A stretch of DNA of 64,000 nucleotides from Lachnospiraceae bacterium (GTDB lineage: Bacteria > Bacillota > Clostridia > Lachnospirales > Lachnospiraceae). The position numbers and the translations under genes are program-made. The notes under the pieces are model-generated. The model was not told where the DNA came from, did no database searches, and worked only from the letters and a program-made list of their open reading frames with translations. Positions 6,917 to 52,018 of this stretch are shown one piece after another. The stretch is taken from positions 1-64,000 of the forward strand of contig JAJQDT010000138.1 in NCBI GenBank assembly GCA_021202075.1. Reading direction: 5' to 3'. Numbering within the stretch: the first letter of the stretch is position 1; the number at the start of each line of letters is the position of its first letter.

Positions 6917-7010
6917 AGAGCCGCGTACGCCATGGCGCGGTAGCGTTCTTGATTTTCTGTGAAAATCAGAAAATAGCCTGCATCCATACTTGCTATGCGG
7001 GTACGGACAG
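6917..7010 (+). repeat. family-1 modular hairpin repeat, copy A
   Basis: Three hairpins in the order I-II-III. Module I is AGCCGCG...GGCGCGG (6919-6940). Module II is TTCTTGATTTTC-TGT-GAAAATCAGAA (6946-6970). Module III is CATCCATACTTGC...GCGGGTACGGAC (6981-7008). The element ends 24 bases before the groES start, next to its AAGGAGG. Other copies lie near 16.9, 31.7 and 51.9 kb. Confidence 0.75.
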
Positions 7011-7033
7011 AGATTGAAGGAGGATTAGCACTT

Positions 7034-7321
7034 ATGAAGTTAGCACCATTAGCAGACAGAGTCGTGCTGAAGCAGCGCGAGGCAGAAGAAACTACAAAGT
7101 CAGGTATCATCCTGATGTCCGGGTCACAGGAAAAGCCGCAGGAAGCGGAGGTCATCGCAGTCGGGCCAGGCGGTCTTGTAGACGGCAAGGAAGTAAAAAT
7201 GACAGTAAAGCCGGGCGATACGGTTATCTATTCCAAATACTCTGGCACGGAGGTAAAGCTTGGTGAGGATGAATACATCATCGTAAAGCAGAGCGATATC
7301 CTTGCTCTGGTGGAAGACTAA
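7034..7321 (+). CDS. groES: co-chaperonin GroES
   Basis: A 95-residue Hsp10 that caps the GroEL cage during ATP-driven protein folding in the cytoplasm. It has the canonical start (MKLAPLADRVVLKQ), the mobile loop region (EETTKSGIILMSGSQEKPQ), GDTVIYSKYSGTEVK and the EDEYIIVKQSDILAL end. ATG 7034 is used because AAGGAGG lies at 7017-7023; upstream in-frame codons fall inside repeat copy A. It is the first gene of the groES-groEL operon under the CIRCE promoter at 6523, behind an unusually long leader. Confidence 0.97.
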   Translation: MKLAPLADRVVLKQREAEETTKSGIILMSGSQEKPQEAEVIAVGPGGLVDGKEVKMTVKPGDTVIYSKYSGTEVKLGEDEYIIVKQSDILALVED

Positions 7322-7377
7322 GATAAACCTGAAAATTAGCGGCTGTGCAGGAAATGAACGGCTGTAAAGATAATTAT

Positions 7378-7399
7378 GGAAATGACGAATGTCGTTTCC
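7378..7399 (+). other. hairpin in the groES-groEL spacer
   Basis: GGAAATGAC-GAAT-GTCGTTTCC, a 9-bp stem with one G-U pair, 33 bases before the groEL start. It could be a processing or stability element that separates groES and groEL messages; no T-run follows. Confidence 0.45.
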
Positions 7400-7431
7400 T
7401 GATAACAGGCAGAACAGGAGGCAGTTGAATT

Positions 7432-9051
7432 ATGGCAAAGGAATTAAAATATAGTGTTGACGCAAGGGCAGCTCTTGAGGCCGGAGTAAATAAGCTGGCG
7501 GATACGGTTCGTGTGACGCTCGGACCGAAGGGAAGAAATGTTGTACTTGATAAAGCCTACGGCTCGCCTTTGATTACGAATGACGGTGTGACAATCGCGA
7601 AAGAGATTGAGCTGGAAGACCCGTTTGAAAACATGGGCGCACAGCTGATTAAGGAAGTTGCTTCGAAGACAAACGATGTGGCCGGGGACGGCACCACGAC
7701 CGCCACCGTACTCGCACAGGCGATGGTGCAGGAAGGCCTGAAGAACATTGCTGCCGGCGCGAACCCGATTGAGCTGCGCAAGGGCATGAAGAAAGCGACC
7801 GATGCTGCAGTAGAATCCATTAAGGGCATGAGCAAAAAGGTGAGCGGCAAGGAGCAGATCACGAGAGTTGCCGCTGTATCGTCAGGGGATGACACGGTTG
7901 GCGAGATGGTTGCCGATGCGATCGAGAAGGTTTCCGAGGATGGTGTGATTACGATTGAAGAGTCAAAGACCATGAAGACGGAAATCGAACTCGTAGAAGG
8001 TATGCAGTTTGATAAAGGCTATGTTTCTTCCTATATGGTAACCGATAATCAGAAGATGGAGGCGGTGCTGGAAGAGCCGCTGATTCTGATCACGGATAAG
8101 AAGATTAGTACCATTCAGGATATTCTTCCGCTTCTGGAACAGATCGTGCAGTCCGGAAAGCAGCTGCTGATCATCGCGGAGGATATCGAAGGGGAAGCAT
8201 TGTCAACCCTGATTGTTAATAAGCTCCGCGGCACGTTCCATGTGGTCGGCGTGAAGGCACCGGGCTACGGCGACAACCGGAAAGAAATGTTGCAGGATAT
8301 CGCAATCCTGACCGGCGGCCAGGTGATTTCTGAGGATCTCGGCCTGGAACTGAAGGATACCACTATGGAGATGCTGGGGCGTGCAAAATCCGTAAAGGTT
8401 CAGAAAGAGAACACCGTGATTGTGGACGGACTTGGCGACAAAGATGCGATTTCTGCAAGAATTTCCCATATCCGCTCTCAGATAGAGGAAACCACATCGG
8501 ACTATGACAAAGAAAAACTCCAGGAGCGTCTGGCGAAGCTCGCAGGCGGTGTAGCGGTGATCCGTGTCGGAGCCGCGACCGAGACTGAGATGAAGGAAGC
8601 GAAGCTTCGCATGGAGGACGCGCTTGCAGCGACCAGAGCCGCTGTGGAAGAAGGCATTATCGCCGGCGGCGGCTCTGCGTACATCCATGCATCTAAGGAT
8701 GTGGAGAAGGTTGCGGATTCCCTTGAAGGGGATGAAAAGACCGGAGCGAATATTATCCTGAAAGCACTGGAAGCACCGCTCTACTACATCGCGGAAAACG
8801 CGGGCCTTGAAGGTGCTGTGATCGTGAACAAGGTTCACGAATCCGAGCCGGGTATTGGTTTTGACGCCTACAAAGAAGAGTATGTGGACATGGTACAGGC
8901 GGGCATTCTTGACCCATTGAAGGTAACGAGAAGCGCCCTGCAGAACGCAACCAGCGTAGCAGCCACTTTGCTGACCACGGAAGCGGCGGCTGGAAACATC
9001 AAGGAACCGGCACAGGCGGCACCGGCAGGCGCGGGCGAAATGGATTATTAA
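7432..9051 (+). CDS. groEL: chaperonin GroEL
   Basis: A 539-residue Hsp60 forming the tetradecameric folding chamber. Recognisable blocks include [17 protein letters not shown], the ATP-site [11 protein letters not shown] near residue 86, the apical [12 protein letters not shown], and [11 protein letters not shown]. The tail is short and ends G-A-G-E-M-D-Y instead of a long Gly-Gly-Met repeat. AGGAGG precedes ATG 7432. It follows groES by 110 bp and is closed by a terminator at 9093. Confidence 0.98.
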
Positions 9052-9092
9052 AATTGTACAGCTGCAGGAAAAACGCAGCTTTAAACGACCGG

Positions 9093-9126
9093 AAAACCGC
9101 AGGATAGGCAATGTTCTGCGGTTTTT
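9093..9126 (+). terminator. terminator of the groESL operon
   Basis: AAAACCGCAG (9093-9102) pairs with CTGCGGTTTT (9116-9125), followed by T residues. A smaller hairpin (AGCTGC/GCAGCT, 9060-9081) lies just before it. Confidence 0.88.
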
Positions 9127-9158
9127 CATTATTTGATTTTTGAAAGGAGAGTGTTGAA

Positions 9159-50507: not shown

Positions 50508-50546
50508 AAAAAACCGCCGTGTACAACACGAAATACAACACGGTGG
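50508..50546 (-). terminator. terminator of tRNA-Leu
   Basis: On the minus strand CCACCGTGT pairs with ACACGGCGG (50546-50514), followed by T6. Confidence 0.88.
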
Positions 50547-50590
50547 AAATTCAATAAACTGAAACCCTTGAAAATAAAGGCTTTGAAGAG

Positions 50591-50672
50591 TGCCGCTGGC
50601 CGGACTCGAACCGGCACGGTATTACCCGCTTGATTTTGAGTCAAGTGCGTCTGCCAATTCCGCCACAGCGGC
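50591..50672 (-). tRNA. tRNA-Leu (anticodon CAA)
   Basis: An 82-nt class II tRNA on the minus strand. The acceptor stem is GCCGCTG/CAGCGGC with discriminator A, the D-arm has GGCAGACGC, and the anticodon stem CTTGA/TCAAG has loop CTCAAAA, giving CAA (Leu, UUG codons). It has a long variable arm and a GGTTCGAGTCC T-arm. CCA is not encoded. Confidence 0.97.
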
Positions 50673-50717
50673 ACATCCTGTCGTGCAACGATCCATTTCC
50701 TCCGTCACACGATGGTT

Positions 50718-50746
50718 ATCTTACCATAAGCAACCGGTAAATGCAA
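50718..50746 (-). promoter_or_regulatory. promoter of tRNA-Leu
   Basis: Minus strand TTGCAT (50746-50741), 17-bp spacer, TAAGAT (50723-50718), about 45 bases before the tRNA. Confidence 0.75.
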
Positions 50747-50913
50747 GATGAAATTTTATGAATAGATGACAAAATCACGGCAAAATTCTGTAATGGTTTA
50801 AGCCACATCCGTCGTCCTTCTTGCTCCACCGCAATATCCAGAGTGATTGAAAGCTGTGAACGGAAATTCAGGTTTTTGAAGTATTCCTGCGTACTCAATT
50901 TCTGCATTATTTG

Positions 50914-51636
50914 TTAGAAGCTGCCAAATGTTAACGTAATGTACACCAGCACGGCTGTCGCGACGGGCACACTCACGGTGTCATAGCCGTGTTTAGAGAT
51001 CAGCTCCACAAATGCCGCACAGACGGCCGTGATCAGCCCTGCCAGAATGGTGATTGGCCCGGAGACTCCGACGAGAGGAAAGCAGATCAGCAGGATCAGA
51101 AAATCCACACAGACCATCGCTCCGCTGCCTTCATACGTCTTGTGGTTGTCCGCAATGCGCCAGCCGATCCGATGCCTGCCGAAGCGTTTTCCGATGAGAG
51201 CGGCCATACAGTCTCCGAATCCCCATACAAGAATCGCGATGACAACCGTTGCTTTCGAGCCGAGCAATCCCCAGAATACCGTGACCAGGCCTGCCTCCAG
51301 AAAGAACAGAAGAAGCAGGCTTTTCTTGATCTCGCCATGTTCACGTTCCTGAAACAGATTTTGATAAAACGAAAGCCGTTCAAACATATACAGGATGGGA
51401 TAAACAACCGCAGCAAAGAGCAGGGCGACAATTGCCACGGCATACCAGTGGCTCTGGGTGGCCGCCATGACCGGCGTCGTCAAAAAAGCGATGATATGTA
51501 AGAACTTTCTCCGCAGCTCGCCCGTAACGCCCAGCACCATAAAACAGAAAAGTGCAATCACGACCGCGATGACCAGAAACAGCAGGAGCGCAGCGGCTGT
51601 GTGCCAAATCTCATGAAAAACCGACGAAAAATCCAT
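50914..51636 (-). CDS. CTP-transferase/dolichol-kinase-like membrane protein
   Basis: A 240-residue polytopic protein with about seven hydrophobic helices. It belongs by motif to the phosphatidate cytidylyltransferase/SEC59 family: G-D-C-M-A-A-L-I-G-K-R-F-G-R-H and N-H-K-T-Y-E-G-S-G-A-M near residues 140-175. Members use CTP to phosphorylate or activate lipids; this one may be a CTP-dependent lipid kinase or a CdsA-like enzyme. RBS AAGGGGA. It stands alone between a tRNA and a repeat-bearing gap. Confidence 0.75.
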   Translation of the reverse strand: MDFSSVFHEIWHTAAALLLFLVIAVVIALFCFMVLGVTGELRRKFLHIIAFLTTPVMAATQSHWYAVAIVALLFAAVVYPILYMFERLSFYQNLFQEREHGEIKKSLLLLFFLEAGLVTVFWGLLGSKATVVIAILVWGFGDCMAALIGKRFGRHRIGWRIADNHKTYEGSGAMVCVDFLILLICFPLVGVSGPITILAGLITAVCAAFVELISKHGYDTVSVPVATAVLVYITLTFGSF

Positions 51637-51802
51637 AAATATCCCCTTGATTTTACATAGCCTTTACATTCCGTTTACAGTATATCAAAAAAATATGATT
51701 TTTCAATGGGCAGCATGAAAACTTCGTCAGGCTCGCTGACAGTGATTGAATCATGACGATATAAAATATCAGGTAAATATGAATTCAAAGCAGAAAAAAG
51801 TC

Positions 51803-51831
51803 TGTAAAAACGAGGCAGGGTATGGTACAAT
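51803..51831 (+). promoter_or_regulatory. promoter ahead of repeat copy D
   Basis: TGTAAA (51803-51808), 17-bp spacer, TACAAT (51826-51831) with an extended TG one base before it. The transcript would begin within the first bases of repeat copy D. Confidence 0.6.
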
Positions 51832-52018
51832 GAAAGCCGCGCAATGGAGAATCGGCAGCGTTCTCGATTTGCTGCGCAAATCGGAACATTCTTCGCGATT
51901 GCATATCCCGTATGAAGTGCGGGATGCCTCCCCGGCGAGGGGCGCGGTGCCGTTCTCGATTTCCTTCGTAAATCGGGACATTGCCTTCGTCCATACTCGC
52001 TGCGCGAGTACGGACATA
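51832..52018 (+). repeat. family-1 modular hairpin repeat, copy D (nested)
   Basis: AGCCGCGCAAT opens module I (51835-), but its loop holds a full module II (TTCTCGATTTGC-TGC-GCAAATCGGAA, 51861-51886) and another hairpin (GCATATCCCG...CGGGATGCC, 51901-51928) before GGCGCGGT closes it (51941-51948). Then comes a standard II (TTCTCGATTT...AAATCGGGA) and III (GTCCATACTCGC-TGC-GCGAGTACGGAC, 51989-52015). It ends 37 bases before the ATPase start. Confidence 0.8.

Follow-up and report, generated by a model that had tools for sequence, protein, structure and literature searches.

Small palindromic repeats scattered through bacterial genomes are described in several lineages. The YPAL/RU-2 repeats of Yersinia are small (168 bp), carry inverted repeats that are internal and not terminal, were studied by comparing empty with filled sites, and show duplications that vary from 3 to 26 bp at targets that span or adjoin dyad symmetry (PMC2229807). 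The BOX elements of Streptococcus pneumoniae are composites in boxA-B-C order whose inner modules vary in number; they cluster with other repeats, are predicted to form RNA stem-loops, and have terminal inverted repeats that have been compared with ISSpn2 (PMC3049150). The Correia/NEMIS repeats of Neisseria are small and mobile, have terminal inverted repeats, TA ends, and promoters of their own, and often lie directly upstream of genes, one of them immediately 3' of the mtrCDE promoter (PMC2229807, PMC10969869). In the Bacillus cereus group, the Gram-positive intergenic repeats bcr1-bcr18 are often found in untranslated regions and some have conserved RNA structure; transcripts carrying bcr3 have a longer half-life, a result about which its authors voice doubts (PMC3446304). 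The Rickettsia palindromic elements (RPE) form a further palindromic family (named in PMC2229807). The subject of the present analysis is a palindromic repeat found in four gene leaders of the window, which is the whole 64,000-nucleotide stretch that was analyzed (contig JAJQDT010000138.1, assembly GCA_021202075.1, Lachnospiraceae bacterium). An earlier note, made from the sequence of the window, read these copies as RNA under selection, perhaps a cis-acting leader through which one signal controls unrelated genes, and offered a spreading element similar to a miniature inverted-repeat transposable element (MITE) as its alternative. The evidence assembled here makes it probable that they belong to one family of small mobile elements without coding capacity, about half of which lie directly behind a promoter -10 hexamer, with the hexamer copied to the far side in the best cases.

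In the window's genome, an assembly of 5.55 Mb in 173 contigs, the element is repeated far beyond chance. The pattern for module II has 31 matches and that for module III has 74, with none for either pattern read backwards, and the short pattern for module I has 84 matches compared with three in its control; two of the module III matches (C22:5013 and C156:17008) are not palindromic and are probably due to chance. A covariance model of the unit formed by modules I and III (R1), built from the 21 of 28 extracted copies that aligned, sets a floor of 105 units for this genome, 105 being the number of candidates scored. The model matches 17 of the 46 genomes searched from one genus within Lachnospiraceae, with 8 to 105 units each (8 to 95 in the 16 besides the window's genome), and gives no match in the other 29, its filters losing some weak matches. 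The module II pattern, which as an exact pattern misses diverged copies, is present in 14 of 47 genus genomes, the window's included, and in none of the 298 further genomes sampled from the family Lachnospiraceae. In a collection of named species it is found in 66 stretches, all titled Lachnospiraceae or Clostridiales metagenome-assembled genomes, and all named carriers are metagenome assemblies. Among the genomes searched, the carriers are part of one genus. Extending the search by covariance model to the genome and its relatives therefore places the four copies in a large family that is non-coding, small, multicopy, and dispersed, as MITEs are.

The basic unit is ∼74 nt long and consists of GAAA, hairpin I (GCCGCGC...GGCGCGGC), CCTTC, and hairpin III (GTCC...GGACAT), as in the plain unit at locus L217 (GAAAGCCGCGCAATGGAGAATCGCTTCGCGATTGGCGCGGCCTTCGTCCATACTCGCTGCGCGAGTACGGACAT). 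The loop of hairpin I may house module II (GTTCTCGATTTNC...GNAAATCGGAACAT) or at least one copy of module IV (TATATCCCGTACGAAGTGCGGGATGCC..CCCCGGCGAGGG), both of them nested palindromes. Module II also occurs between I and III and at times alone (L001, L002, L020); the solitary module at L020:57-85 (G000:C113) adjoins, antisense to the rRNA, what by eye resembles the 3' end of 23S rRNA. Units may stand in tandem, with one unit at L326 of the close relative G013 and two at L030 of the window's genome. The hairpin sequences are highly variable and their pairing is largely preserved. In the 21-copy alignment the right end (GGACAT) is no inverted copy of the left end (GAAAGCCGCGC), and the inverted repeats are the internal hairpins; an ordinary DDE MITE is disfavored because terminal inverted repeats are lacking. 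Shortened copies at L143, L144, L152, and L191 retain the -10-like box with the opening bases of hairpin I, the remainder being gone, and at L152 ATGATAAAA is still present on either side.

Gene leaders that carry the element in one genome can be empty in others. At groES, the sequence runs straight through the site in six relatives (G010, G007, G013, G014, G015, and G009; loci L256, L257, L258, L268, L272, and L273); G017 carries the same insertion as the window's genome and G019 a shortened one. The element is not conserved with groES across species, and further gene leaders are empty in relatives too. These insertions, which the corresponding leaders of relatives lack, support the alternative of the earlier note, a MITE-like element spreading into leaders. 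The groES leaders of the genus (L254-L283) have two forms, one with a full CIRCE-like inverted repeat close to the gene, and one with a half-site by a distant TTGACG/TATATT promoter; the element is in the second.

Filled sites were paired with empty ones by a gap filter that 50 raw pairs passed, many of them nested, paralogous, or inside genes, and five loci are relied on (L176, L064, and L110; L136 and L027); L010 and L030 were left out of the automated comparison. At L176 (CCGTGATACAAT-element-AATACAATAATAGCGG) ATACAAT is present twice, as against once in the empty L285 (CCGTGATACAATATAACGGCGG). At L064 (TGTGATACAAT-element-ATGATACAATAAAAAATAG; empty L087, TTGTGATACAATAAAAAACAG) the duplicated sequence is TGATACAAT, the left match being only 31 bp, and at L110 (TATGTTACAATG-element-GTTATAAATGCATTTAAC; empty L296, TATGTTATAATGCATTTAAC) it is GTTATAATG. 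The pairs L136/L302 and L027/L327 likewise have a duplicated TATAAT, less completely, the leader being partly different. A native hexamer that stands once in the empty site thus stands twice in the filled one, the far-side copy spanning 6 to 10 nt in the best cases; insertion is accompanied by target-site duplication at the three loci that align well on both sides and, less completely, at the other two. More broadly, left and right flanks match over at least 8 nt at 10 of 78 loci (500 shuffles: mean 2.5, maximum 7), and a right-hand TANAAT is present in 11 of 62 compared with 1 of 62 in the control.

These junctions can also be read with the right box as part of the element, equivalent to the right cleavage site of IS200/IS605-like insertion sequences, and the left box as the native target, in which case no true target-site duplication would exist. 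Members of IS200/IS605 have two subterminal hairpins without inverted repeats, a layout that hairpins I and III match, and RTGATA is frequent after GGACAT in right flanks. Such elements insert without target duplication, however, which is not what is found at L176, L064, and L110 or, less completely, at L136 and L027. The right boxes moreover track native non-consensus sequence at L110/L296, L027/L327, and L026/L320, and 6 of 17 carriers have no match to Y1_Tnp. This reading of the right box is regarded as unlikely.

The resemblance of the target to a promoter was assessed at 101 left ends, 67 from the window's genome and 34 from relatives, the latter mostly fetched by the exact module II pattern, so that carriers of module II are over-represented. 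The logo of the left flank is TRTGATAYAATGRRA followed by GCC. For 53 of the 101, TANAAT (4 of 5 matches) abuts the left edge exactly, compared with a mean of 2.6 and a maximum of 9 at 54 other offsets, and TG one base ahead of the hexamer, as in an extended -10, accompanies 32 of the 53 ends with the hexamer and 4 of the 48 without it. With a -35 matrix of our own making, the -35 score peaks at a spacer of 17 (-1.7, compared with -3.14, standard deviation 0.32, at other spacers), a profile that was run after a weak match-count test had been seen; in sense tandem gaps, -35 matches (4 of 6, spacers 16-18) are present in 8 of 23. On their sequence, these -35 and -10 signals look like real promoters.

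Genomic context was determined for arrays, in which matches to the exact patterns of modules II and III, which overlook diverged copies, are merged by coordinate; they replace a first count of 136 clusters (++ 50, -+ 26, -- 17, +- 4, 25 in genes, 14 with a side missing), because the short module I pattern also matches coding sequence by chance. The 86 arrays of the window's genome comprise 36 in tandem gaps in sense and 14 in antisense, 18 in divergent and 2 in convergent gaps, and 5 called inside genes, two of which look like chance matches; for 8 more the next gene is co-oriented and the stretch has no gene upstream, and for the last 3 a downstream gene is missing. The next gene is co-oriented in 62 of the 86, the start codon being at a median distance of 70.5 nt and within 100 nt in 44 of the 62. 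The excess of sense over antisense in tandem gaps has a one-sided p of 0.0013 against equal odds, and 16 of the 18 divergent arrays are closer to the gene pointed at. The claim that the element is always oriented with its gene holds for all four copies in the window and does not extend to the genome, where the tandem ratio is 36:14. Placement is nonetheless non-random relative to start codons and orientation, which does not by itself require a regulatory leader. A weight matrix of the target, applied to tandem gaps without elements, yields, at a score of at least 8, 35 sites in sense and 10 in antisense, near the ratio of the arrays; a strict directional target before genes therefore predicts the orientation of those copies that have it. 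Within coding sequence, comparison of L295 (G007) with L306 (G014) reveals an in-frame copy of 81 bp (27 codons) in a gene that by eye is topoisomerase-like, absent from the related species; a stem III arm of this insertion matches the native flank, and L298 and L304 have more repeats at that place.

A preference for leaders may also arise if insertion is only loosely targeted and the leader copies are survivors, since neither promoter nor gene is broken there. Target-like sites exist in coding sequence too (137 at a score of at least 8 in 930,286 positions scanned), yet only 5 of 86 arrays are in called genes, and copies without a hexamer are co-oriented as well. Survival cannot, however, explain why 53 of 101 left edges abut a hexamer exactly, and convergent gaps, where the least harm is expected, hold only 2 arrays. 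As an explanation of the whole pattern, survival is distinctly unlikely; removal of copies from genes is probably a further influence.

Several observations weigh against a mobile repeat that inserts behind -10 hexamers. The hexamer is missing from 48 of the 101 left ends, whose co-orientation (++ to --, 27:5) equals that of the 53 that have it (23:6); the -10 target is therefore not the whole cause of orientation, and the hexamer-less copies need another cause, either a second directional target or survival. Several of them, copy 1 of the window included, adjoin AG-rich sequence that by eye is Shine-Dalgarno-like, and the groES promoter is far upstream of copy 1. By match count, -35 boxes accompany 11 of the 53 hexamers, compared with ∼10% in the control, and 1 of 18 in divergent gaps. 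The sense excess of target sites falls at lower scores, to 175:123 at 6 and 728:593 at 4. A stricter left-right test, covering 62 of 180 arrays, is weak, with a mean of 4.84 compared with 4.34 (the highest of 2000 permutations reaching 4.87) and 8 matches of at least 7 compared with a permuted mean of 4.2 and maximum of 11; such statistics are only moderate genome-wide. Old copies decay, and the shuffled background is raised by the shared consensus. The left box TAAAAT at L026 differs from the native TAGATT in L320, and the comparison at nrdD (L198) is not clean, the closest relative, G013, having a larger deletion. No clean empty site was found in relatives at ilvC (L009), as was also the case at L118, L119, L128, L134, L137, L160, L212, and others. 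No mobilizing gene was found in an insertion-sequence search limited to Y1_Tnp.

The search for Y1_Tnp bears on whether these are palindromes of the REP/BIME type spread by a RAYT transposase. The palindromes are dispersed, tandem, and nested, and Y1_Tnp is matched in 11 of 17 carriers (three times in the window's genome), compared with 13 of the 29 non-carriers. The six carriers without a match are G006, G008, G010, G015, G017 (which has 91 units), and G020, where absence is uncertain as the assemblies are fragmented. The ends do not carry the GTAG or CGTC tag named in the title of PMC3733652: GCC follows the left logo, and the junction ahead of hairpin III reads CCT.C. Spread by RAYT is very improbable; with six carriers missed and 13 non-carriers matched, RAYT/Y1 is disfavored as the mobilizer, though not disproved.

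Covariation of the stems bears on the reading of the element as RNA. In the 21 aligned I+III units, 93.9% of 523 cells pair and 15 of 25 pairs vary in both arms; the structure was drawn by the author from the same sequences, which leans these counts towards structure. The covariation score is 0.354, compared with 0.114 for shuffled and at most 0.097 for slid controls, and further pair types are reached by 8 of 500 shuffles. Covariation therefore exceeds both controls, and together with the non-random placement it leaves the leader unrefuted by the checks that the earlier note had set, although a regulatory leader is not thereby required. Mismatches were tallied in stem III of 141 of 150 copies, leaving out stem II (one-base bulge shift) and the partly aligned hairpin I, and comprise 98 A.C, 38 G.T, and 30 others. 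At pair 4, 69 of the 141 have A.C, a mismatch that would disrupt an RNA helix on the sense strand, and outside this pair A.C and G.T are equally common (27 and 28). Selection on sense-strand RNA should favor G.U over A.C; there is no such bias, and the covariation therefore does not point to sense-strand RNA. Upkeep of palindromes at the DNA level is an equally good explanation of the covariation, since neither the correction of palindromes through template switching nor a hairpin requirement during movement would produce that bias.

A cis-acting regulatory leader, with RNA hairpins under selection and one protein or signal acting across unrelated mRNAs, would account for covariation well above controls and for the 62 arrays before a co-oriented gene, also where the -10 target is absent. 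It would likewise account for a case at a fixed locus, as hairpin I at groES differs between G019 and the window's genome by a compensated pair. The leaders of relatives are empty, however, and module number, order, and nesting all vary; 14 tandem arrays are antisense, and in-frame copies are present in coding sequence. A search of the window at Rfam gathering level matched none of the four copies and detected four other RNAs only (two tRNAs, Clostridiales-1, and GA-cis). With empty leaders in relatives, half of the copies behind a -10-like hexamer, and A.C mismatches as frequent as G.T, selection on a cis-acting RNA is very improbable as the origin of the repeats, and the main proposal of the earlier note is not upheld.

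Under the favored explanation, a family of small mobile repeats, the -35 box and the left -10 hexamer would remain functional after insertion and the mRNA would start at or near the first bases of hairpin I, so that the transcript would carry a 5'-terminal hairpin, which may be tolerated by the host gene or useful to it. A trans-acting enzyme would mobilize the element, and template-switch correction of palindromic DNA, or the need for a hairpin in movement, could preserve changes on both sides of a stem. In Firmicutes, 5'-terminal hairpins can shield mRNA from 5'-dependent decay, and by analogy this family may have a stabilizing or regulatory effect on mRNA. It is tentatively proposed that the integration machinery itself reads the promoter, through the extended -10 or the melted DNA there, which would make the element a promoter-seeking mobile 5' leader that copies the -10 box and leaves the -35 and left -10 working. 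If this is true, unrelated genes gain the same 5'-terminal hairpins and share an mRNA leader by transposition, not by descent. Targeting of the -10, if it holds, would be an unusual mode of insertion that spares the host gene, and filled and empty leaders would be natural before/after pairs for the effect of a 5'-terminal hairpin on mRNA. A new regulatory RNA is usually argued from leaders that are repeated, covary, and share the orientation of their genes; in this case a mobile repeat, with half of its copies at a directional expression signal, is the source of much of that evidence. The titles and abstract openings returned by searches of the open-access literature mention no repeat that targets -10 boxes and none in Lachnospiraceae, and such a repeat may exist elsewhere.

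The four copies of the window, with two of the other RNAs matched there, are as follows.

6916..7009, plus strand: copy 1, in the groES leader, with GAGA, hairpin I (6920-6941), module II (6945-6974), and module III (6980-7009); groES start at 7034
16857..16988, plus strand: copy 2, with hairpin I (16864-16898), II (16902-16931), and III (16939-16966); next start codon, TTG, at 17001
31631..31789, minus strand: copy 3, with II (31760-31789), III a (31724-31752), hairpin I (31673-31713), and III b (31640-31668); gene start at 31590
51826..52022, plus strand: copy 4, element at 51832-52017, with hairpin I arms at 51836-51842 and 51941-51947; gene start at 52054
51860-51889, 51903-51940, 51952-51981, and 51989-52017, plus strand: inner modules II a, IV, II b, and III of copy 4
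51826-51831 and 52017-52022, plus strand: TACAAT boxes flanking copy 4, the first within an extended -10 (TATGGTACAAT)
27086-27247, plus strand: Clostridiales-1 RNA (Rfam)
770-852, minus strand: GA-cis RNA (Rfam)

Read strand by strand with modules placed exactly, all four copies are where they had been reported and point at the downstream gene, at distances of 24, 34, 49, and 36 nt from the start codon for copies 1-4 (∼24-50 had been claimed), with start codons taken from a small codon-usage gene finder written for the analysis. Of the genes named, groES (Cpn10) and the AAA ATPase (AAA_35) are borne out by Pfam, the sialidase after copy 3 matches only BNR families below cut-offs, and the 86-aa gene after copy 2 has no Pfam family. 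The proposed three-module layout is present in part: copy 4 has two modules II and a fourth palindrome, IV, in the loop of hairpin I, and copy 3 deviates. Some of the compensating pairs reported for stem II are imperfect, namely CGATTTCC with GTAAATCG in the second module II of copy 4 and CGATTCCC with GGAAATCG in copy 2.

The left end of copy 1 has no -10 box, and its empty sites are known in relatives. An exact direct repeat of 20 nt, GATGGAAGCCGCGCATAAAA, flanks copy 2 (16857-16876 and 16969-16988); its second occurrence is a truncated unit, and the left end of the copy overlaps the 3' end of the upstream gene. Copy 3, which is matched by the module II and III patterns and by R1, has a first unit without an intact hairpin I, two identical modules III, and a second unit flanked by GTACTTRT repeats (31714-31723 and 31631-31639). 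At copy 4, no empty site was found in relatives, and the apparent duplication of the hexamer is read from this one locus. A different dispersed repeat of ∼50 bp, with a GTGCCAGTGGCAC-like core (query bases 1580-1629, from L133), has dozens of matches across six genomes of the genus.

Among the systems compared, and as far as the available descriptions go, YPAL is closest in behavior, sharing small size, internal inverted repeats, and variable duplications between empty and filled sites; its length differs, and its targets are not -10 boxes. BOX is similar in its composite build, variable inner modules, clustering, and predicted stem-loops, and unlike the present element in its boxA-B-C order and terminal inverted repeats; no -10 targeting is described for it. 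Correia/NEMIS repeats share the position upstream of genes and differ in their termini and in bringing promoters of their own, and the bcr repeats share a Gram-positive host, intergenic location, and, in part, RNA structure. The RPE are likewise palindromic and share placement in frame inside coding sequence; the present element is mostly in leaders, and its host is unrelated. For YPAL, BOX, bcr, and RPE, the comparison is by description only. The element is best filed as a new variant among small palindromic mobile repeats, near, yet not strictly, a MITE.

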